From Nitrospirota bacterium (GTDB lineage: Bacteria; Nitrospirota; Thermodesulfovibrionia; Thermodesulfovibrionales; Dissulfurispiraceae), in the NCBI GenBank assembly GCA_004321915.1, contig SCQE01000017.1, positions 1 to 32,722 on the forward strand: a stretch of DNA of 32,722 bases. Direction: 5' to 3'. Position 1 is the stretch's first letter, and every line of letters begins with the position of its first letter. The notes beneath the pieces are model-generated. The model was not told the DNA's origin, did no database searches, and saw nothing but the letters and a program-made list of their open reading frames with translations. Both the position numbers and the translations under genes were made by a program. Positions 15,065 to 32,722 of the stretch are shown piece after piece.

Positions 15065-16387
15065 ATGAGCAGCGTGGTTGTGACGGATGTTGATCAAGGG
15101 ACGGTTTTGGCTGATCTCGGTAGGCTGATGGGGCAGGCTTTGCTCGGCATAGGAATGGGCGTTGCTTGGGGAATATACCTCTGTTTCGACAAATCCGCTG
15201 AAACCAAGGAGAAAGACAAGCTCAAGTCCGAACTGAACAACACGCTTTACAATTTAAGGAAAGAGCTCGACGACGTTGACGCCGCCGCAGGAAAACAACT
15301 CGAACGGGACATGGACGTTGCCGGGAAACTGGCGGCTGAAATAAAGGCGGCCCTAGATCAGGACAGGAAAGAGGATATAAAGAATGTCTTGGGAGCGCTC
15401 AACGCAAAGATAACGGATTTAAGAAAAAAGATCGAACTGGCAAAACTTTCCCAAAAGGAAGACCTGCTTTTACAGGAATATAAACCTGCAGTCCCTCTGA
15501 TGGACGATTCCCAAACAAGGTTGGGTGCCCCCGGCACTGAGACGGAAGATACGCTTGCGCCTCAGCGTCCCGCCGAAGTCTCAAATTCTAATAATTCCAT
15601 CCGTACCGAAATACTCAGATTCCACGCGCTAACAAAGGCCTACGACGAAGACGTTTACAGGGAACTCCTGCCGCTCGTGGATAGCGTGAAAGGCGAGACT
15701 TACGCTCAAAGGTTGTCTGTTGTAAAGGACAATATTAAATTGAGGTATGGAAAGCTTAAAGAAGCTGCGGCGGAGACGATAGCATACAGGAATGTGCTGA
15801 ACGGACTGATTGAGACGCTCAGGCAGCATCCCGGTTCAGGGAAACTGGCAGGCGACATCCAAATGCTCATCGCCAGAAAAAATATAACCCGCGAAGAGTA
15901 TGAAACCATACTGTCATGCGCCGCTGAACTTGCGGCCCGGGAAGTGACCGTCCTTGAGATAAAGAACAGACTTGAGGCCTTGGGTTATCACGTAGCTGTC
16001 GGGGATGACATTGCCGGGAAGATAGAAAATGGCGAGGTCGTATATCTGTCCACTAAATGGGACGGCTATAAGATCATGTTAAGGCTCGACCCGGACGGCA
16101 AGCTGACTACGAGAATGGTCCGTATGGTGGATACCGAGGACGAAAAGAAGAACATCACCTCGTATCAGAAGCAGAAAGACATCGATACGGCAAAACAATG
16201 GTGTAAGGACTATAAAGGGTTTATCGAAAAGCTGAGGGAGGTAGGGCTGACCGCTGACGTGAAATTCATCAAGGAGCCTGAGGAGGAGGGGGTAGCCTGC
16301 ATAGTCAGTGCCGGCGCTGCTCAGGCACGGGCAAAGGCGGCGGCCATTAACGGTTCCGGCGCTGAAGCGTCAATGAAGCAGTCCTGA
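15065..16387 (+). CDS. coiled-coil protein of unknown function, first gene of phospho-signalling operon
   Basis: This 440-residue protein is not recognised as a named family. Residues about 17-40 (LGRLMGQALLGIGMGVAWGIYL) form a hydrophobic, Gly-rich segment that may insert in the membrane. Residues about 50-125 are charged coiled coil (LKSELNNTLYNLRKELDDVDAA), followed by a Pro/Ser/Thr-rich linker near 140-180 and a helical middle. A compact alpha/beta C-terminal domain (LEALGYHVAVGDD, STKWDGYKIMLRLDPDGKL) ends the protein. Its stop overlaps the kinase ATG by one base (TGATG), so it is coupled to the kinase. It may be a membrane-bound scaffold or the main kinase substrate; this is inference. 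Confidence 0.75.
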   Translation: MSSVVVTDVDQGTVLADLGRLMGQALLGIGMGVAWGIYLCFDKSAETKEKDKLKSELNNTLYNLRKELDDVDAAAGKQLERDMDVAGKLAAEIKAALDQDRKEDIKNVLGALNAKITDLRKKIELAKLSQKEDLLLQEYKPAVPLMDDSQTRLGAPGTETEDTLAPQRPAEVSNSNNSIRTEILRFHALTKAYDEDVYRELLPLVDSVKGETYAQRLSVVKDNIKLRYGKLKEAAAETIAYRNVLNGLIETLRQHPGSGKLAGDIQMLIARKNITREEYETILSCAAELAAREVTVLEIKNRLEALGYHVAVGDDIAGKIENGEVVYLSTKWDGYKIMLRLDPDGKLTTRMVRMVDTEDEKKNITSYQKQKDIDTAKQWCKDYKGFIEKLREVGLTADVKFIKEPEEEGVACIVSAGAAQARAKAAAINGSGAEASMKQS

Positions 16388-18792
16388 TGATCGGCACATC
16401 CGATAACGGTAAGACCATCGTCGAGGGTACCGAAAAGACCGTTCGGGAAAAATCCGATAGGGCAATTTCCGAAACCGGCAGAACTGTAATCGAAAACGAA
16501 CGCACCGTTGTAGAGAGGTCTAGGCACGAAACAAGAGACCTTCGTCTAAAGGCTTTTAGGGGCCGGAGCGTTATAGAGGAATATCCTGCAGCCGGCGGAG
16601 AAGCGGACATCTATCTCATAGACGACAACGGCAAAAAGAATATTCTTAAGCTTTACAGGTACGGAATGAATCCCCCCGGAGAAATCCTGAAAAAAGCGAA
16701 GCAGCTGAGCGATCTCTCTCCGGAACATATTATCAGAATAGATGAATGCGGGCTCGATGAAAAGACGCAGAGATGGTTTGAGCTTATGGAGTACGCGGCC
16801 CACGGGTCTTTAAAGGACTTCGTAAAGGGCAAGCCCGACGAAAAAACCGTGCGTACGATAATAGGCGAGATACTTGAAGGCCTGAAGGTCATTCATGACA
16901 ACAACATCCTCCATCTGGACCTGAAACCCTCGAACATACTTGTAAGGAACCCCGACCCGCTTGACCTTGTTTTTGCCGACTTCGGCATATCCTCGATGCT
17001 CGATCCGGAACTGTCGAGGAAGATGACGACCGTAAAAGGCACCCCGCTTTACTGGTCTTCTGAGGCCTTTACAGGGGTGGTGGGCAAAGAGGCTGATTAC
17101 TGGTCTCTCGGTATTATAATCCTTGAATTTCTTATGGGCAGACACCCGTTCAGCGGCATCGACACTAAAGTGATAATGTTCACGCTCGCAACCAAGGGGG
17201 TGAGCATTCCGGAGGACATACCGGTTGATTTTTTTAATCTCACAAGAGGTCTGCTTACCAGAGACCCTCATGCCAGATGGGGATACAACGAGGTAAAGAG
17301 ATGGCTTGACGGAGACAGGAACGTGCCTGTTTATTATGTGCCTGAAGTGCGGACAGGCAAGAAATTCCGCCTGCCTTATAAATTCCGTGAAAGGGACTTT
17401 TATTCCTTCGAGGACCTTGTCGGCTCGTTTCTTGAAAGCGAAGAGGCGTGGCGCGATGCCAAAGAGCATCTCTACAACGAATACATAGCAAAGTGGCTTG
17501 AGAGGATGGAGGACTACGATACGGCCGTAAGGACGATAAACGCCAGGAAAGAGGCGAAAGACGACATGGATCTGGTTGTAATGACGCTCGCCTGCGGCCT
17601 CAACAAGGAACTGCCTTTTATCCTCTACGGTAAATTGATATCGGCCAAGAACCTGTCGATCTACATAGGTAAGGCGCTGAGAAAAGAGAACACGCCTGCG
17701 GAACTTGCGCTCGTCGAAAAACTGATCAACGGCAAGCTGCGCGGCTATTTTGAGCAATACCTGAAACTGACGACCAGAAAAGATAATGAATTGCTCGCAA
17801 TACTCAAGGCCATAGAGAGCAGGTCGCCCCGGATATATGTTCAGGAAAAAAAATACGAGGGCGCGCTTAAGCTGCTCGACCTGTTCGTCAATCCCGACAG
17901 TTACATGCTGCCCCATGCTTTCTGGGACGACCTTTACCTCCAGCCTGAGCTTCTTGCTTTAAACCCGGACGCCTTTTTTTCAAAAGATAGGTACTCGGAG
18001 ATATTGAGCGATTATGTGATCTCGGGGCCTTTGAAGGAAAATATCGGGAAATGCCTGACATCCGGGCATACAGCCGAGTATATAAAAACAGCTGGGCTTC
18101 TTACCCGGCTGATAGAGATAAACCATATCATAAGCCGTGATGAACTGCGCCGTCTGGAAGAGGAATACCTTATACCGGAAACGCTCAGGGGCGATATCCT
18201 TGACGGCGGGCCGTCGGAATATTCGGGTTCCATTTTTGCGTTCAGGGAACTGCAGAGGGCGGAGCTTCTGATCAAAAAGAGCGATTTCGATAATTATGCC
18301 GAGAAATATTACGGTATCCTTGAGAATATGCTGCATATCTCCAAGGCCAATACAGGCGTGAAAAACAGTGCGGCCAATCGTGCGCAAGGATCGCTTGCAG
18401 ACAGGCTCTGCATGTTGTCGAAGGAAGAATATACCAAGATATCCTTATACATAAAAAACAGGGTGGATTTGAAAATTCGGCCGATGATGAACAAGATAAA
18501 GGACAGGCTTATTAAAGAACACCCGCCGGACCTCATGTACATGGTCAGGTACATAGACGCCCTGAAGTCCGGAGAAATAAAGTGGGACGTCATGGACAAA
18601 GAGATATTAAACGAAGTGTACGCAAAACTCTTCGGTCTTGCGGACGAAGATGCTCCCATCACAGAGGCGCCGGTCATCGGTTTTTTGCTTAAATCCCTTT
18701 TGGGTGACAGAATAGAAGAGACCCCGTTCGGGGACACTTTGAGAATGAAGTATGAAACCAGATTTGACGACGTCCTTCAGGGGCGATGGTAA
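16387..18792 (+). CDS. Ser/Thr protein kinase with repeated N-terminal Thr motifs and large C-terminal domain
   Basis: This 801-residue protein has a eukaryotic-type (Hanks) kinase domain at about 60-330. It has a Gly-rich loop AAGGEAD (68-74), ATP-anchoring K88, catalytic loop HLDLKPSN (H176, D178, N183), D198-FG, and an activation segment TTVKGTPLYWSSEAF. Residues 9-43 carry five related pentads at 7-8 residue spacing: KTIVE, KTVRE, RAISE, RTVIE, RTVVE. These are likely phosphorylation or FHA-docking sites. Residues about 340-395 (SFEDLVGSFLESEEAW...EYIAKWLERM) look like a separate small helical module, and the remaining 400 residues are helical and unrecognised. No membrane helix is seen, so the kinase is cytoplasmic. 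Confidence 0.92.
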   Translation: MIGTSDNGKTIVEGTEKTVREKSDRAISETGRTVIENERTVVERSRHETRDLRLKAFRGRSVIEEYPAAGGEADIYLIDDNGKKNILKLYRYGMNPPGEILKKAKQLSDLSPEHIIRIDECGLDEKTQRWFELMEYAAHGSLKDFVKGKPDEKTVRTIIGEILEGLKVIHDNNILHLDLKPSNILVRNPDPLDLVFADFGISSMLDPELSRKMTTVKGTPLYWSSEAFTGVVGKEADYWSLGIIILEFLMGRHPFSGIDTKVIMFTLATKGVSIPEDIPVDFFNLTRGLLTRDPHARWGYNEVKRWLDGDRNVPVYYVPEVRTGKKFRLPYKFRERDFYSFEDLVGSFLESEEAWRDAKEHLYNEYIAKWLERMEDYDTAVRTINARKEAKDDMDLVVMTLACGLNKELPFILYGKLISAKNLSIYIGKALRKENTPAELALVEKLINGKLRGYFEQYLKLTTRKDNELLAILKAIESRSPRIYVQEKKYEGALKLLDLFVNPDSYMLPHAFWDDLYLQPELLALNPDAFFSKDRYSEILSDYVISGPLKENIGKCLTSGHTAEYIKTAGLLTRLIEINHIISRDELRRLEEEYLIPETLRGDILDGGPSEYSGSIFAFRELQRAELLIKKSDFDNYAEKYYGILENMLHISKANTGVKNSAANRAQGSLADRLCMLSKEEYTKISLYIKNRVDLKIRPMMNKIKDRLIKEHPPDLMYMVRYIDALKSGEIKWDVMDKEILNEVYAKLFGLADEDAPITEAPVIGFLLKSLLGDRIEETPFGDTLRMKYETRFDDVLQGRW

Positions 18793-18850
18793 AAAAAGAC
18801 CGGCGAGGAGGGAGAATGGCTTTTACCGGAAATATGACGGGGGATCACGA

Positions 18851-20662
18851 ATGGACCGGAATATAGTCCCTAAGTGGGCCAGAGAGATAGTGAGGTTTAT
18901 GTCTATAAAGCCCCAGTTCATGCTGTGGGGCAACGTATATGACGTCTACCCCATGGAGTTGGGCGGAAGCGTAATCACGTTCAAAATGATTGATTACCTG
19001 AGGAGGATGCTTACCGAAAACGGTTACGGTATGGTGGTTGCCTACGAGCCGCTATACGGGTTCACGCTGCTTGAAGGGGACCCCGACGCTTTTAAGTCGA
19101 TTACAGGAGAGTCCCCCGGCAAGGACAAGACCTTTGCCTGCACGGTAGGCAAGGCCGTGGAAATGATCGAGAGGCTGGTGGAAAACGAGCGGGAATACTG
19201 TTCTGTGGTCCTGAACTTCTCCTCCCGCATTCCGGACATAGCCGGCAACGACATCAACGAATTTTATTTCAGGATGTTCAGGCTTGCACAGACCGCTGTG
19301 CCGAGGATGACTGGTAACGACAGCGCCCCGAAATTCAATTTGGCTGTCTGGATAATGGACAAGGAAAACGATGTGCCTGCGTGGTATACGCTGGACAACC
19401 CCAAGATAAAAAATCTGGCGGTGCCTAAGCCCGATTATCCGGTACGCAAGACGATCGTCGAAAACCTTTCAAAAAATATCGATAAATTCAACGAACTGGA
19501 TGAGGCCAAGAGGCAGGAAGGCATATCCATATTCGTCGATCAGACCAACGGACTGCACGGTACCGAGATAGTCTCTATCGTCGCCCTTGCAAAGAGGGAG
19601 GGGGTGCCCTTCGGCGAGATAGCAGAGGCGATAAGGATGTACAAGCTCGGCATAGTCGAAAACCCGTGGTCGAAGATAGATATGGGCAAGATCGGCGATG
19701 CAGGGCCGCTGCTGTCAAAAAGGGTAATGGGTCAGGACCTTGCGATAAACAAGGCCTCGGACATAATAAAGAGGTCTGTATTTAATCTTTCGGGTTCTCA
19801 GTATTCTAAGTTTTCACAGAGACCAAAGGGCGTGCTCTTTTTTGCCGGGCCGACCGGCGTAGGCAAGACTGAACTCGCAAAGGCAGTTACGGAGCTGCTC
19901 TTCGGTTCAGAGACCAGTTACATACGTTTTGACATGAGCGAGTTCGCACATGAACACGCAGACCAGAGGCTCGTGGGCGCGCCTCCCGGATATGTCGGAT
20001 ACGACGTCGGCGGACAGCTCACCAATTCCATAAAGCAGGACCCTTTTTCCGTTGTGCTGTTCGATGAAATAGAAAAAGCGCATCCCAAGATACTGGATGT
20101 GTTTCTCCAGATACTGGACGACGGAAGACTTACTTCCGGCAGGGGGGAGACCGCATATTTTTCGGAGAGCCTGATCGTATTTACCAGCAACCTCGGCATA
20201 TACGAGGTGACGCCCGATGGCCGGAAAATACAGAAAGTGGGCCCGGACATGTCGTACGAGGACATAAACAAAAGCATACTCGGGTCGATCGAAGACTTCT
20301 TCAAGTACAAAATAGGCAGACCCGAAATACTGAACAGGATCGGCGACAATATCGTTGTATTCGATTTCATCAGGCCCGCCGTGGCCTATCGCATACTCGA
20401 CAAGATGCTCAGGAATGTCATATACAAGATCGAAGACACGCATAAGGTAGGTATCGATATAAGCGAAGGCGCCTTGGCCAAACTCAGGGAGGCGTGTTGT
20501 TCGGACCTAGGAATGGGCGGAAGGGGCGTAGGCAATAAACTCGAAGACGTTTTCATCAACCCCCTGTCTAGGGCGCTCTTTGAGGACCGTTCGAAAGGTC
20601 GTGATAGACTGACGATAACCGATGTGCTGAAAAAAGATACAATATGGGAACTCGTGCTATAG
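18851..20662 (+). CDS. ClpB/ClpA-like AAA+ ATPase with degenerate N-terminal ATPase domain
   Basis: A 603-residue protein from the ATG at 18851, chosen because GGGGGA lies 6 bases upstream; an in-frame ATG at 18752 would extend it into the kinase gene. Residues 290-600 are a Clp-type second AAA+ domain: Walker A GPTGVGKT (333-340), pore loop GYVGY (380-384), Walker B VVLFDEIEKAH (401-411), sensor 1 TSN (445-447), and an arginine finger in EILNRIG. Residues 1-270 look like a decayed first AAA+ domain with no Walker A; LWGNVYDVYP occupies that place. No ClpP-docking IGF/L loop is seen, so it probably remodels proteins rather than feeding a protease. It overlaps the radical SAM gene by 19 bases. 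Confidence 0.9.
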   Translation: MDRNIVPKWAREIVRFMSIKPQFMLWGNVYDVYPMELGGSVITFKMIDYLRRMLTENGYGMVVAYEPLYGFTLLEGDPDAFKSITGESPGKDKTFACTVGKAVEMIERLVENEREYCSVVLNFSSRIPDIAGNDINEFYFRMFRLAQTAVPRMTGNDSAPKFNLAVWIMDKENDVPAWYTLDNPKIKNLAVPKPDYPVRKTIVENLSKNIDKFNELDEAKRQEGISIFVDQTNGLHGTEIVSIVALAKREGVPFGEIAEAIRMYKLGIVENPWSKIDMGKIGDAGPLLSKRVMGQDLAINKASDIIKRSVFNLSGSQYSKFSQRPKGVLFFAGPTGVGKTELAKAVTELLFGSETSYIRFDMSEFAHEHADQRLVGAPPGYVGYDVGGQLTNSIKQDPFSVVLFDEIEKAHPKILDVFLQILDDGRLTSGRGETAYFSESLIVFTSNLGIYEVTPDGRKIQKVGPDMSYEDINKSILGSIEDFFKYKIGRPEILNRIGDNIVVFDFIRPAVAYRILDKMLRNVIYKIEDTHKVGIDISEGALAKLREACCSDLGMGGRGVGNKLEDVFINPLSRALFEDRSKGRDRLTITDVLKKDTIWELVL

Positions 20663-21258
20663 AGGATATCCACATAGGACTTGTCCACTATCCTGTCTTG
20701 TCGCTCGGGGCCGGCAGGAGAGTGGGGATATGGTTTCAGGGCTGCAATATCAGATGCAAGGGCTGCATCTCTCAATACACATGGGAGGTCAACGATACCT
20801 GCAAGACTACCGTAGGCAGACTGCTGGCCGACATAGCAGGCTATAAGTGTGCCGCACCTGACGGCATAACCATCTCCGGCGGTGAACCTTTTGACCAGCC
20901 CGCAGCTCTTTATTCACTCTTGTCGGGTATAAGAGAACACGGCTTTAATGACATCATGGTTTACAGCGGATATGAATATGATTATCTGAAGGAAAACTAC
21001 CCTGATATTCTGGCGCTGATAGACGTTCTGATAGACGGCTGCTTTGTAGAGGGTCTGACCACGTCCTATTCTTGGAAAGGGTCGGAAAACCAGAGGATGA
21101 TCGTCCTTGCAAAAGATGACGCGTTAATACAAAGATATCGCGAGTACGGACAAAACGCCGACCGGCGGTTACAGATAATCGAGAAAACGGGTTCTGTTTA
21201 TATTGTAGGCATTCCGCTGCAGAGCGATTCGGAGGAGATAAAAAATGTCCTTGGTTAA
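20644..21258 (+). CDS. NrdG/PflA-like radical SAM activating enzyme
   Basis: This 204-residue protein has a single 4Fe-4S motif C34-x3-C38-x2-C41 (QGCNIRCKGC) and the SAM-binding SGGEPFDQP (78-86). The WFQGCN start and short length are those of the activases that make glycyl radicals on anaerobic ribonucleotide reductase or pyruvate formate-lyase. No glycyl-radical enzyme is encoded in the window, and the gene is locked by overlaps between the AAA+ gene (19 bases) and the FHA gene (14 bases). A specialised role inside this phospho-signalling operon, rather than housekeeping NrdG activity, is therefore likely (inference). Confidence 0.88.
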   Translation: MGTRAIEDIHIGLVHYPVLSLGAGRRVGIWFQGCNIRCKGCISQYTWEVNDTCKTTVGRLLADIAGYKCAAPDGITISGGEPFDQPAALYSLLSGIREHGFNDIMVYSGYEYDYLKENYPDILALIDVLIDGCFVEGLTTSYSWKGSENQRMIVLAKDDALIQRYREYGQNADRRLQIIEKTGSVYIVGIPLQSDSEEIKNVLG

Positions 21259-21691
21259 GATATGCCCCACCTGCAAGACAAGAAACGAGCCCTCGGAGAT
21301 GATGTGCGGGATGTGCCTCGGCGACATTTCCGGAGTCAGTCCTGTGGACAATGAGCAGCCCCCGGTTTCAATGGCCGAAGACAGGACAATCGTTCAAAGG
21401 GGCGGTATCGTTCTGAAGCTGTCGGGCGGCGGAGACATACCTGTATGCGATGGGGACATAGTAGGGCGCGAGGCTGTCGGCAAAGAGATCCTGCAGCCTT
21501 ATAAGACCATATCCAGAAGGCATGTCCGTTTCACCTTCGAAAACGGCGGATGGCTTATAGAAGACCTGAATTCCACCAACGGAACATACCTTAACGGCAA
21601 CAGGCTTGCGGCAAATGCCAAGACCCCTGTAGCGCACAATCAGAAACTCTCTCTGTCGTCCGCCTGTGAAATCGTCATAGAGCGGAAATGA
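21245..21691 (+). CDS. zinc-ribbon plus FHA domain protein
   Basis: This 148-residue protein has an N-terminal zinc ribbon (C7-x2-C10 and C21-x2-C24). A linker carries RTIVQ (47-51), which closely matches the pentads at the start of the neighbouring kinase. A complete FHA domain follows (about 55-145) with G74-R75, S90-x2-H93 (ISRRH) and DLNSTNGTYLNG (108-119). FHA domains bind phosphothreonine. A short Thr-containing tail before an FHA domain recalls GarA/OdhI-type regulators, where phosphorylation of the tail closes the FHA site. It should read the kinase signal. Its start lies inside the radical SAM gene, and the PP2C gene follows after about 16 bases. Confidence 0.93.
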   Translation: MSLVKICPTCKTRNEPSEMMCGMCLGDISGVSPVDNEQPPVSMAEDRTIVQRGGIVLKLSGGGDIPVCDGDIVGREAVGKEILQPYKTISRRHVRFTFENGGWLIEDLNSTNGTYLNGNRLAANAKTPVAHNQKLSLSSACEIVIERK

Positions 21692-21707
21692 GTCGAGGGC
21701 ATTGACA

Positions 21708-22445
21708 TTGCGATCATCCGGAATGACCGACAGGGGCGTCAAACGCCGGACCAATCAGGACAGTATCTTTATGGACGACGATCTCGGCCTGTATATCGTG
21801 GCCGACGGCATGGGAGGACATGATAGCGGAGAAGTGGCCAGCAGTATGGCTGTAAGCGGAACAGCTTCGTTTCTGAAAAGTTGTTTTCATAGGATGTCCG
21901 GCTCGCCTGAGGATGAAACAAGGGTCATCGATTGCCTGCAAGATGCTGTCTCGACCGTAAACAGGCGGATATACGACGAATGGCGGAAAGGTCCCGGCGG
22001 ACTGATGGGGACGACCATATCGCTGTTGCTTTTAATGTCGGGCCGGGCATACACCGCACATGTCGGCGACAGCAGGATATACAGGGTGCGGGACGCTAAA
22101 CTTGAAAAACTTACCAAAGACCACAATCAGGCGCAGGCGATGGCTGACGCGGGACGGATCAGCCCTGAAGAGGCGGAAAACCATAAGTTGAGCCATGTCC
22201 TCACAAGGTCCGTAGGCTCCGATGAGACAGTCACGTCCGATGTCGCATTTTATGAAGTCAGAAAAGGCGATATGTTCCTCCTCTCATCCGACGGCATGTT
22301 CAGGGTGATGAATGCTTCCGAGGTGGAGGAGGCGCTAAAGGCCGGTTTATCGCCGGACAAGGCATGCAGGCTGCTTATGGACCGGACTATAGAGAGGGGC
22401 GCGCCCGACAATGTATCCATAATCCTTGTGGAATGCGGGCTATAA
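21708..22445 (+). CDS. PP2C-family Ser/Thr protein phosphatase
   Basis: About 245 residues with the metal-dependent PP2C motifs in order: RTNQDS, VADGMGGHDSGEVAS (metal-binding Asp), TAHVGDSRIYRV, KDHNQ, LLSSDG and PDNVSIIL. It should reverse phosphorylation by the operon kinase. No ATG fits well. TTG at 21708 lies 8 bases after GAGGG (21695-21699) and keeps the first beta strand (RSSGMTDRG), so it is preferred over TTG at 21702 and ATG at 21723. It is the last gene of the operon. Confidence 0.92.
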   Translation: MRSSGMTDRGVKRRTNQDSIFMDDDLGLYIVADGMGGHDSGEVASSMAVSGTASFLKSCFHRMSGSPEDETRVIDCLQDAVSTVNRRIYDEWRKGPGGLMGTTISLLLLMSGRAYTAHVGDSRIYRVRDAKLEKLTKDHNQAQAMADAGRISPEEAENHKLSHVLTRSVGSDETVTSDVAFYEVRKGDMFLLSSDGMFRVMNASEVEEALKAGLSPDKACRLLMDRTIERGAPDNVSIILVECGL

Positions 22446-28805: not shown

Positions 28806-28828
28806 GTCGCAATCCCTTTTTTATCAGG
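28806..28828. repeat. isolated half CRISPR repeat
   Basis: Twenty-three bases identical to the first 23 of the 36-base CRISPR repeat; the last 13 (TCTTCTTTAGTTC) are replaced by unrelated sequence. It lies 465 bases left of the first full repeat, with the four-helix-bundle gene between. The stretch 28663-28805 holds no gene that can be supported; it contains a CCGCC/GGCGG hairpin near 28733-28750. Confidence 0.85.
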
Positions 28829-28856: not shown

Positions 28857-29240
28857 TCAACAGTCAGAAGAACTATCCAGTTTTTTAATCAGTGAGGAAA
28901 GCATCGCCCTAACTTCATGATAACCACTTTCAATATTTGCATGTTCTTCTTGCTTGATAAAACCTAACTCAAAACTCAGCAAAAGCCAGTAGTCTGTTTC
29001 AGTTGCTTCTCGTCTCGCAATTGTCAGGGAGTTTTGAAATACTTTCCCTTTGTTGCCGCCATAACCCTCAGCGATATTTGCTGCTATAGATGTGCTTGAC
29101 CGCAAAAGTTGTTTCCTTATAATTATTGCCTCATCATTGCGTGGATATTTAGCACAAACCGCGATAACTGATTTTGCCAATGCATGCGCCTTTTGCCAAA
29201 CAATCAAGTCCCTATAACTTCCAATGTTTTTTGACCCCAT
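28857..29240 (-). CDS. four-helix-bundle protein (S23 / IVP-type)
   Basis: This 127-residue protein has the family hallmark YRDLIVWQKAHALAKSV, then RSSTSIAANIAEGYG and a C-terminal helix pair. Relatives are encoded in the intervening sequences of some 23S rRNAs and in many intergenic, mobile-looking positions; the function is unknown. AGGAG 10 bases upstream supports the ATG at 29240. GTCAGAAG at 28863-28870 and inverted copies CTTCTGAC at 29257-29264 and 29271-29278 flank it, a pattern often seen around this family. It lies between a half and a full CRISPR repeat, so it probably inserted in the array end. Confidence 0.88.
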   Translation of the reverse strand: MGSKNIGSYRDLIVWQKAHALAKSVIAVCAKYPRNDEAIIIRKQLLRSSTSIAANIAEGYGGNKGKVFQNSLTIARREATETDYWLLLSFELGFIKQEEHANIESGYHEVRAMLSSLIKKLDSSSDC

Positions 29241-29293: not shown

Positions 29294-32200
29294 GTCGCAA
29301 TCCCTTTTTTATCAGGTCTTCTTTAGTTCATTACTGGAAAGCCTAAAGAGCGTGGTCATACTTGTCGCAATCCCTTTTTTATCAGGTCTTCTTTAGTTCG
29401 CCTCAAGCAAAATACCCTTAGCGGTATTTTTAAGTCGCAATCCCTTTTTTATCAGGTCTTCTTTAGTTCCGAGATACTGAGCAAGATCACCACTGCCCGT
29501 GCAGGTCGCAATCCCTTTTTTATCAGGTCTTCTTTAGTTCCTGAAAGCGCAAGGGCACAAAATCACACAAGGTCGCAATCCCTTTTTTATCAGGTCTTCT
29601 TTAGTTCATCTTCGGGGCGCAAATCTTGGGGACGCAAATCTTGTCGCAATCCCTTTTTTATCAGGTCTTCTTTAGTTCTGAAAGTGGATGGAGGAACCCT
29701 CTACATGGAAGGTCGCAATCCCTTTTTTATCAGGTCTTCTTTAGTTCTGAAAGTGGATGGAGGAACCCTCTACATGGAAGGTCGCAATCCCTTTTTTATC
29801 AGGTCTTCTTTAGTTCAATGTCCGACCACAAAGATACCTGTGAGGACGGGAGTCGCAATCCCTTTTTTATCAGGTCTTCTTTAGTTCGAAAAAGAACTTT
29901 GGGATGAGAAATCATCCCAAGTCGCAATCCCTTTTTTATCAGGTCTTCTTTAGTTCGGTAAGGGAACTGAAGATAGATAAGGGAACCCTTGTCGCAATCC
30001 CTTTTTTATCAGGTCTTCTTTAGTTCCTCACTAAAAAAAGGATATGGGATGTAAATTTCCGTCGCAATCCCTTTTTTATCAGGTCTTCTTTAGTTCAGCT
30101 CTGCCGCATATACATCGGCTCCGCAATCCATGGGTCGCAATCCCTTTTTTATCAGGTCTTCTTTAGTTCCCCCAGCCCATCATGGGACGGCGTAATTGTT
30201 CGTCGCAATCCCTTTTTTATCAGGTCTTCTTTAGTTCGACGTGTGAAGGTAGGTTCACCTGTTGTGATTGGGTCGCAATCCCTTTTTTATCAGGTCTTCT
30301 TTAGTTCTGGGTAGAAAGTAATTCGTATGCTTCCGAATCAGAGTCGCAATCCCTTTTTTATCAGGTCTTCTTTAGTTCGGGAACCCTCTACATGGAAGGG
30401 AAAAACTCCAGGAGTCGCAATCCCTTTTTTATCAGGTCTTCTTTAGTTCATAGCTAAATTAGCATAGCTAACAATAAGCAGTCGCAATCCCTTTTTTATC
30501 AGGTCTTCTTTAGTTCAGCAAGACTGTGGACTCGGGGGCGCTGTTTGTCGCAATCCCTTTTTTATCAGGTCTTCTTTAGTTCTCAGGGCAACATACCGGA
30601 ATAAATATCCCGGGTTCTGTCGCAATCCCTTTTTTATCAGGTCTTCTTTAGTTCGAAAAAAAGAGTCGCTAACAAGATTGCAAAAAGGGGTCGCAATCCC
30701 TTTTTTATCAGGTCTTCTTTAGTTCCTCCCTGAGTATTGGGAAGCGGTCGGCAGACTCGGTCGCAATCCCTTTTTTATCAGGTCTTCTTTAGTTCAAAAA
30801 ACGATGAAAGCCTGCTACGATGCAGGCAGGGTCGCAATCCCTTTTTTATCAGGTCTTCTTTAGTTCTTTCTAATCATGAGGTATTAGGTTCGATTCCTGT
30901 CGCAATCCCTTTTTTATCAGGTCTTCTTTAGTTCGAAGTAAAAAAAGAAAAGGAAATTTGGGAAGAGGTCGCAATCCCTTTTTTATCAGGTCTTCTTTAG
31001 TTCTTTTCGGGGGACGAATTGGGGAATTTTTATAAACTGTCGCAATCCCTTTTTTATCAGGTCTTCTTTAGTTCTGTACGGGATTTACACATGCACAAGA
31101 TAATAAAAGTCGCAATCCCTTTTTTATCAGGTCTTCTTTAGTTCAATTCGTGTTACCCTGCAAAGGGTAACCACCGTCTCGTCGCAATCCCTTTTTTATC
31201 AGGTCTTCTTTAGTTCAGGGATTGGGACGTGCAACGTGTTGCACAAGTGTCGCAATCCCTTTTTTATCAGGTCTTCTTTAGTTCCGTTTCGGGTCACAGG
31301 TTCTACATTTTGTCAGAGAGTCGCAATCCCTTTTTTATCAGGTCTTCTTTAGTTCGAACTAGGAAGTTTCTATAAACTCAGATAAAAGTCGCAATCCCTT
31401 TTTTATCAGGTCTTCTTTAGTTCCCTTATCAGAAATTATGGCCGGTAACTTGACAGTGTCGCAATCCCTTTTTTATCAGGTCTTCTTTAGTTCGAAAGGA
31501 GTTTCCAAGAACACTCCCAGGATTTTCGTCGCAATCCCTTTTTTATCAGGTCTTCTTTAGTTCAAAAGAGTTTGCAAGAACACTCCCGGGATTTTCGTCG
31601 CAATCCCTTTTTTATCAGGTCTTCTTTAGTTCATTAGGTTCTGTGAATGTCCTTAGAAAAGTTGGGTCGCAATCCCTTTTTTATCAGGTCTTCTTTAGTT
31701 CTTTTCAGGGGAGTTGGGATATTTTTATAAACTCAGAGTCGCAATCCCTTTTTTATCAGGTCTTCTTTAGTTCTTGGGACGTGCAACGTGTTGCACAAGT
31801 GTGCAACGTCGCAATCCCTTTTTTATCAGGTCTTCTTTAGTTCGCATTATATGCGCTTGCTTGGTGAACTAAAGAGTCGCAATCCCTTTTTTATCAGGTC
31901 TTCTTTAGTTCCAAGCTGTAACCCAAATATCCAAAGATAATTTTCGTCGCAATCCCTTTTTTATCAGGTCTTCTTTAGTTCCCCGAGATTATTCGTGTTA
32001 CCCTGCAAAGGGTAAGTCGCAATCCCTTTTTTATCAGGTCTTCTTTAGTTCTAATTCATTTGGTGAAGCATGGTGGAATGATGGGTCGCAATCCCTTTTT
32101 TATCAGGTCTTCTTTAGTTCGGCAGGGCGCAAGGGCGGTAGTGTTTCTTCTTCCTCGTCGCAATCCCTTTTTTATCAGGTCTTCTTTAGTTCCGAGGTCG

Positions 32201-32606
32201 AGGGATACGTTAATCGTACGGAAACAGTCGCAATCCCTTTTTTATCAGGTCTTCTTTAGTTCCCAGATGGTGAAGCATGGTGGAATGATGGAGGTCGCAA
32301 TCCCTTTTTTATCAGGTCTTCTTTAGTTCTGCTGAGAAAATCGAGGTGACAGAATGATAGGTGTCGCAATCCCTTTTTTATCAGGTCTTCTTTAGTTCTT
32401 TACGTTGTCGGAGATAATGGCCGGTAACTTGACTGTCGCAATCCCTTTTTTATCAGGTCTTCTTTAGTTCGGTAACAACCCCCGCAGGGGGTGAAACATT
32501 TAAAGTCGCAATCCCTTTTTTATCAGGTCTTCTTTAGTTCTTGAGCAGGACAAAAATATCGGTTAACCGATAAAGTCGCAATCCCTTTTTTATCAGGTCT
32601 TCTTTA
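29294..32606 (-). CRISPR. CRISPR array, 48 repeats and 47 spacers
   Basis: A 36-base repeat begins GTCGCAATCCC, has a T-rich centre and ends CTTCTTTAGTTC on the plus strand. It recurs 47 times without a mismatch I could see, plus a terminal copy (from 32575) whose last four bases differ. Spacers are 30-37 bases. Read on the minus strand, the repeat starts GAACTAAAG and ends AAAGGGATTGCGAC, resembling the GGGATTGAAAC-type 3' ends of many type III and I repeats whose last 8 bases form the crRNA 5' handle; hence the minus call. Against it, the altered terminal repeat at the right looks like a trailer end. The type is uncertain because no cas gene is visible. Confidence 0.97.
29643..29780. repeat. 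tandemly duplicated repeat-spacer unit in the array
   Basis: Spacers at 29679-29711 and 29748-29780 are identical (33 bases, starting TGAAAGTGGATGG), so the 69-base repeat-spacer unit occurs twice in tandem. The simplest cause is slippage or unequal recombination between repeats. Confidence 0.95.
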
Positions 32607-32632
32607 CTCGACAGTGCAAAGTTCTCATAGAG

Positions 32633-32638
32633 ATTATA
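32633..32638 (-). promoter_or_regulatory. consensus -10 element pointing into the array
   Basis: TATAAT on the minus strand, between the stop of the edge gene and the right-hand terminal repeat, placed to start transcription into the array in the minus direction. No matching -35 is seen 16-18 bases upstream, so support is partial. Confidence 0.35.
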
Positions 32639-32640
32639 GA

Positions 32641-32722
32641 CTATTTTTGTTTGCGTAGGCGAGCGATGGCGAGGGAAAGTTCGACCCAGTCATCGGTAAG
32701 TTTTTTGAATGTCTGATAGTTT
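32641..32722 (-). CDS. C-terminal fragment of an unidentified gene, cut by the window edge
   Basis: An open minus-strand frame enters from the right edge and ends at TAG (32643-32641). Its last 26 residues include YQTFKKLTDDWVELSLA and end ARLRKQK. The amphipathic helical pattern looks protein-like. It ends 35 bases from the CRISPR array and would run toward it, the usual place for a cas gene, but 26 residues are too few to identify a family. Confidence 0.4.
   Translation of the reverse strand, partial: NYQTFKKLTDDWVELSLAIARLRKQK

Follow-up and report, generated by a model that had tools for sequence, protein, structure and literature searches.

The CRISPR array at the end of a Nitrospirota contig raises the question of why its related spacers all read in one direction. 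The window that we analysed, 32,722 nucleotides, is the entire contig C34 of a 3.6-Mb draft genome, and its array holds 47 spacers of 30-37 nt between copies of the repeat GTCGCAATCCCTTTTTTATCAGGTCTTCTTTAGTTC (Table 1). A sequence-only reading of this DNA had proposed repeated one-strand sampling of a few loci, either RNA-derived (RT-Cas1-like) or strongly strand-biased, from diverging relatives of one invader, and had looked to an RT-Cas1 fusion gene beyond the right edge. Elsewhere in the window, a gene cluster at 16387-22445 encodes a protein kinase, a Clp-like AAA ATPase, a radical SAM/4Fe-4S protein, an FHA protein and a PP2C phosphatase. The first full repeat is preceded, 488 nt to its left, by a 23-nt fragment of the CRISPR repeat (28806-28828), and between the two (28857-29240) is a gene for a 23S rRNA intervening-sequence protein of the four-helix-bundle family, placed as though inserted into the old end of the array.

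Identifying the locus that owns the array required crossing the insertion sequence at the contig end. This element is multi-copy: we counted 20 genomic occurrences of its 16-nt end, most of them some 100 bases away from where a contig stops. The opposite end of the element is on contig C29, where the remainder of the repeat follows it, and joining the flanks of C34 and C29, with the TTCTTTA duplication around the element, restores an exact 36-nt repeat. We infer that the two contigs carry a single type III-A array of 64 spacers, 17 of them on C29. Past these spacers, C29 encodes in order the leader, cas2, a diverged cas1 (275 aa), cas1 (320 aa), an AbiEii-like gene, a CARF-nuclease, csm5, csm4, csm3, csm2, the parts of Cas10, a Csm6-type CARF protein and, at the contig end, cas6. 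The complete Csm1-5 set (Cas10/Csm1, Csm2, Csm3, Csm4 and Csm5) is thus present in order, by NCBIfam and PADLOC matches, and Cas10 has a GGDD motif at residue 408 of its 612-aa palm part and an HD motif in a separate 247-aa frame. By this gene content the locus is classed as type III-A; it is not the type I locus with a strict PAM that the earlier reading had named as the contrary case. The Cas10 split (L041 1720-4340, on C29) may be a natural fission or a frameshift.

The join across the insertion sequence also places the leader beside the cas genes in the expected orientation, and the window is the older, leader-distal part of the array. What lies past the right edge is therefore a leader with the cas2, diverged cas1 and conventional cas1 of a III-A locus, and not an RT-Cas1 fusion; neither of these local cas1 genes contains a reverse transcriptase (RT) domain. 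The diverged Cas1 (L041 12405-14169, on C29) lacks about 40 central residues and mostly retains the Glu, His and Asp residues. It matches the PADLOC family PDLC01185 ('Cas1, diverged variant, second in the loci'), and such genes stand in tandem with cas1, with the same repeat family, across Nitrospirota (L085-L088, L101-L116, L141-L162). The 3' end of the repeat (...GGGATTGCGAC, reverse complement) and the leader and cas side on C29 both put crRNA transcription on the minus strand of the window. The window strand is therefore the mRNA-sense strand, and the crRNAs would be antisense to phage mRNA.

We compared all spacers with one another without gaps (local score of at least 13, with shuffled spacers as control), leaving out adjacent exact duplicates as separate acquisitions. 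Each shared string listed by the sequence-only reading was recovered where it had been placed. There were 17 direct pairs, for 0.05 expected by shuffling, and two inverted pairs, each arising from the self-complementary palindrome GTGCAACGTGTTGCAC. The claim that shared strings all read in the same direction thus holds in 11 spacer families (about 14 independent comparisons), in which palindromes are the only source of opposite matches. The interval to which the reading assigned these families, 31004-32434, does bear them, but it covers only the right part: families also occur in the left half and past the contig edge. Contig C29 added the families 32471/C29_904, 30726/C29_1180/C29_1040, 31217/C29_267 and C29_197/C29_622, and, at the protein level, the link 32193/C29_693. 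Within families, start points are offset from one another by 1 to 14 nt and share neither a common edge nor a fixed PAM edge, and these staggered homologous families agree with the proposed repeated sampling of diverging relatives of the same invaders.

Table 1. Array features in the window, with positions, strand and family relations.
Feature	Position	Strand	Details
Type III-A CRISPR array, leader-distal part	29294..32606	-	47 exact 36-nt repeats and a 48th cut at 32 nt
Adjacent exact duplicate spacers 29679/29748	29679..29780	-	family with 30379; joined sense peptide KVDGGTLYMEGKNSR
Spacer overlapping 29679/29748	30379..30413	-	19-nt overlap, stagger 13
LPEYWEAV-family spacer	30726..30759	-	with C29_1180 and C29_1040; synonymous with C29_1180 in the window-strand frame
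Member of trio with TATAAACT core common to all three	31004..31038	-	with 31356-31387 and 31702-31737; sense peptide ELGxFYK(LR)
Spacer, family with 31982-32015	31145..31180	-	25 nt shared; hairpin GTTACCC..GGGTAAC
Spacer, family with 31774-31807 and C29_267	31217..31248	-	27 nt shared with 31774; self-complementary GTGCAACGTGTTGCAC
Spacer, family with 32399-32434	31424..31457	-	17 nt exact (ATGGCCGGTAACTTGAC) in a 32-nt alignment with 6 differences; sense peptide LSEIMAGNLT the same despite differences
Spacer, family with 31564-31596	31494..31527	-	near-identical (3 differences in 33); sense peptide KEF[P/A]RTLPGF
Spacer, family with 32263-32293	32052..32084	-	24 nt shared; (N)SFGEAWWND; homologous gene on coding strand in 19 viral contigs
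Spacer encoding EVEGYVNRTET	32193..32226	-	related to C29_693 (DIEGYVNRT)
Spacer across start site, sense orientation	32330..32362	-	GAGGTGACAGAATG
Spacer, family with C29_904 (PAGGETFK)	32471..32504	-	hairpin ACCCCCGCAGGGGGT
Repeat interrupted by insertion sequence	32575..32606	.	7-bp target duplication TTCTTTA
Insertion sequence end (CTCGACAGTGCAAAGT...); contig stops here	32607..32722	.	

The strand composition of the spacers points the same way. Among the 63 distinct spacers of the whole array, purine excess falls on the window strand in 50 and on the other in 9 (p=5e-8). Scored with a 3-mer model built from phage genes, the whole III-A array has a sense fraction of 1.00 (0.91-1.00), a composition-based value that varies with the reference genes chosen, and its two halves, in the window and on C29, agree. 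The same genome holds a type I-C array of about 100 spacers (L043 9660-16345, on C143), for which the purine count is 46:45 and the sense fraction 0.52 (0.34-0.70). The two arrays have common targets, spacer 32541 being related to the I-C spacers IC019 and IC041 in both orientations. A PAM-like common edge is absent from the III-A families, in which offsets vary; the I-C family IC061/078/081 has offset 0.

Coding patterns give a second view of orientation. Read in the sense frame of the window strand, most substitutions within families are silent or conservative: the LSEIMAGNLT peptide is constant over 6 nucleotide differences (31424/32399), LPEYWEAV is constant over 2, and EVEGYVNRT/DIEGYVNRT is a conservative change despite 9. 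For 31494/31564, 32471/C29_904, 31217/C29_267 and C29_197/C29_622, the codon test does not clearly separate sense from antisense. Shine-Dalgarno and ATG start sites occur in the sense orientation in 6 spacers here and in 10 in relatives, against 0 and 1 in antisense. We considered start sites as a hot spot of acquisition and rejected this, as their excess over shuffles is modest and we estimate that sense orientation together with small phage genes would produce roughly as much. A preference for purine-rich or PAM-marked DNA, rather than for the sense strand, could be read from the purine content of the spacers, which is higher (0.584) than that of the reference phage genes (0.529). It is a most improbable account of the bias, given that the overlaps are staggered with no common edge, that most sense-frame peptides are better conserved than antisense ones, and that start sites appear in sense only.

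Among 2.9 million viral contigs, scans for shared patterns and for codon-degenerate ones found no exact protospacer. The 32052/32263 family corresponds to part of a small phage protein (HHNxFGEAWWNDG); 19 viral contigs have it, in each case on the coding strand, and its gene was found by homology, with a nearest match of 29/33 nt. Matches to 31424 and C29_693 lie 134 nt apart in capsid-like reading frames, which is only suggestive, as these contigs were pre-selected by pattern. Further pieces of six viral records yielded nothing else that stood clearly above the shuffled controls. The mRNA-sense protospacer positions anticipated by the sequence-only reading are thus supported by composition, codon patterns and one homologous gene, and on this basis, rather than on exact protospacers, the crRNAs are predicted to be antisense to phage transcripts.

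The pattern extends to other genomes. Nitrospirota relatives also encode the diverged Cas1, as do a few other genomes, and the repeats of adjoining arrays mostly end in GGGATTGCGAC. In related III-A arrays, 330 further spacers have a purine count of 240:78 and a sense fraction of 0.98 (0.92-1.00), and no reverse transcriptase was found near these arrays in the fetched regions. In a set of 22 arrays that includes the present one, we counted 26 overlap families, comprising 33 same-strand pairs, and 3 inverted pairs, each of them palindromic; with the families taken as independent, 26 one-strand families out of 26 would imply a sense fraction of at least about 0.94 (95% bound). Arrays with a related repeat ending in GGGATTAAGAC have a sense fraction of 0.999 (0.895-0.999, n=86), and an RT-Cas1-linked array of a relative in the same phylum (G009) one of 1.00 (0.79-1.00, n=54). 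As arrays with and without a linked RT are alike, RT linkage makes no visible difference. A type III set from Thermus gave 28:15 and a sense fraction of 0.53 (0.31-0.75), but the method is weak there, the Thermus host genes having no purine signal.

The genome does encode an RT-Cas1 fusion, outside the locus that owns the array, on contig C116 (L042 8583-12095). This 1170-aa protein has the RT motif YADD and a Cas1 domain with its acidic and histidine residues; its N-terminal ~390 residues match no Pfam family and no Cas6. The fusion looks intact, and this, with the equally one-stranded RT-Cas1-associated array of G009, leaves some room for its acting in trans on the III-A array, turning phage mRNA into spacers. 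We regard this as very unlikely: the gene is on a separate contig, the 15 kb read there contains no CRISPR array, no neighbouring gene was recognised as cas2, the III-A array has a cas1 and cas2 of its own, and the bias is the same in relatives whose fetched region lacks an RT. The RT-Cas1 of the Marinomonas type III-B system, moreover, acquires spacers in either orientation, with moderate bias only (PMC5576922). That system resembles ours in its type III effector, in transcription-dependent targeting and in the presence of an RT-Cas1 gene in the genome, and differs in the Cas1 linked to the array, which here has no RT. Hence, of the two processes offered by the sequence-only reading, strong one-strand bias stands, and RNA-derived or RT-Cas1-like acquisition is not needed to explain it, because the locus cas1 has no RT, relatives with no linked RT are alike, and the Marinomonas RT-Cas1 inserts either way.

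The premise that a single orientation signifies RNA-derived acquisition fails for a type III effector, for which antisense crRNAs alone are useful. We think it probable that spacers entered the array from related phages by PAM-less acquisition and that selection then favoured the RNA-targeting orientation. The Cas1-Cas2 module by the leader would capture, with no PAM and in the course of many encounters, pieces of related phages. The Csm/Cas10 effector would act only when the crRNA pairs with a transcript, survivors would be cells whose spacers give antisense-oriented, useful crRNAs, and the array would become almost wholly one-stranded. Conserved phage genes resampled in diverged relatives would yield the staggered homologous families. 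The sequences and their orientation, coding sense, locus type, control array and replication in relatives are direct observations; that orientation is a product of selection at the interference stage, and not of acquisition bias, is what we infer. Several findings weigh against this account: no exact protospacer turned up in the viral contigs with the patterns tried, so that strand calls depend on composition, codon patterns and one homologous gene; the bias is nearly total, its lower bound of ~0.91-0.94 being above the 65% average published for type III; passenger spacers in the useless direction, expected to remain under pure selection, are hardly seen; and the Thermus set, for which the method is weak, showed no clear bias.

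The near-completeness of the bias counts for orientation being set at acquisition by a DNA-based process, either an asymmetric integrase of Cas1 and the diverged Cas1 (Cas1') or transcription-coupled capture, as does the fact that many Nitrospirota loci pair the diverged Cas1 with Cas1 and the same family of repeats. This is nonetheless unlikely, as there is no known mechanism by which a DNA integrase would read the transcribed strand, and in Thermus strand bias arises by selection, with no RT, which is sufficient by itself (PMC7515739). A locus in which Cas1' was not detected (L159/L192) leans the same way, although its 12 spacers give little power. Quite unlikely, too, is a general form of this idea, in which these Nitrospirota III-A systems would, without reverse transcription, insert spacers almost solely in the RNA-targeting direction at acquisition, using an integrase of Cas1 and Cas1' or picking fragments up at transcribed sites with structure. 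Hairpins (stem of at least 6) occur in a fraction of 0.19 of the spacers here, 0.17 in relatives and 0.13 in the I-C array. Their frequency is 3 to 4 times that of shuffles in III-A spacers, and the I-C array is enriched too; random host-gene windows show no excess, phage windows little or none, and Thermus type III spacers little (0.11 vs 0.08). They are commoner in resampled families (~8.5/26) than in singletons (45/329; one-sided p=0.009 in a post hoc test). As the I-C array shares the enrichment, we rejected it as a mark of RNA acquisition.

Selection for the RNA-targeting orientation, our preferred explanation, fits what is known of type III systems. They prefer the coding strand, 65% on average, which lets the crRNA pair with mRNA, and a PAM is rare among those with their own cas1-cas2 (PMC8482600, Vink et al. 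2021); the locus shares both traits and differs in degree, with an estimated 0.91-1.00. The type III-A system of Thermus thermophilus is similar in its Csm1-5, GGDD Cas10, CARF effectors, Cas6 and own cas1-cas2, in a repeat ending in GGGATTGCGAC and in spacers antisense to phage transcripts. Unlike it, the system described here has a second, diverged cas1, a near-complete bias in the standing array and a Cas10 split into HD and palm frames. One-strand bias is therefore already known for type III; here it is unusually complete, without need of a reverse transcriptase.

These arrays bear on the process that fills type III loci with usefully oriented spacers, which could be selection, acquisition from RNA or some sorting step not yet known. 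One genome pairs a III-A array near 100% with an I-C array at 50%, and its relatives extend the III-A pattern over hundreds of spacers with no linked RT, with one RT-Cas1 array for comparison. They also carry a warning: one-strand spacers are not by themselves evidence for RNA-derived acquisition.
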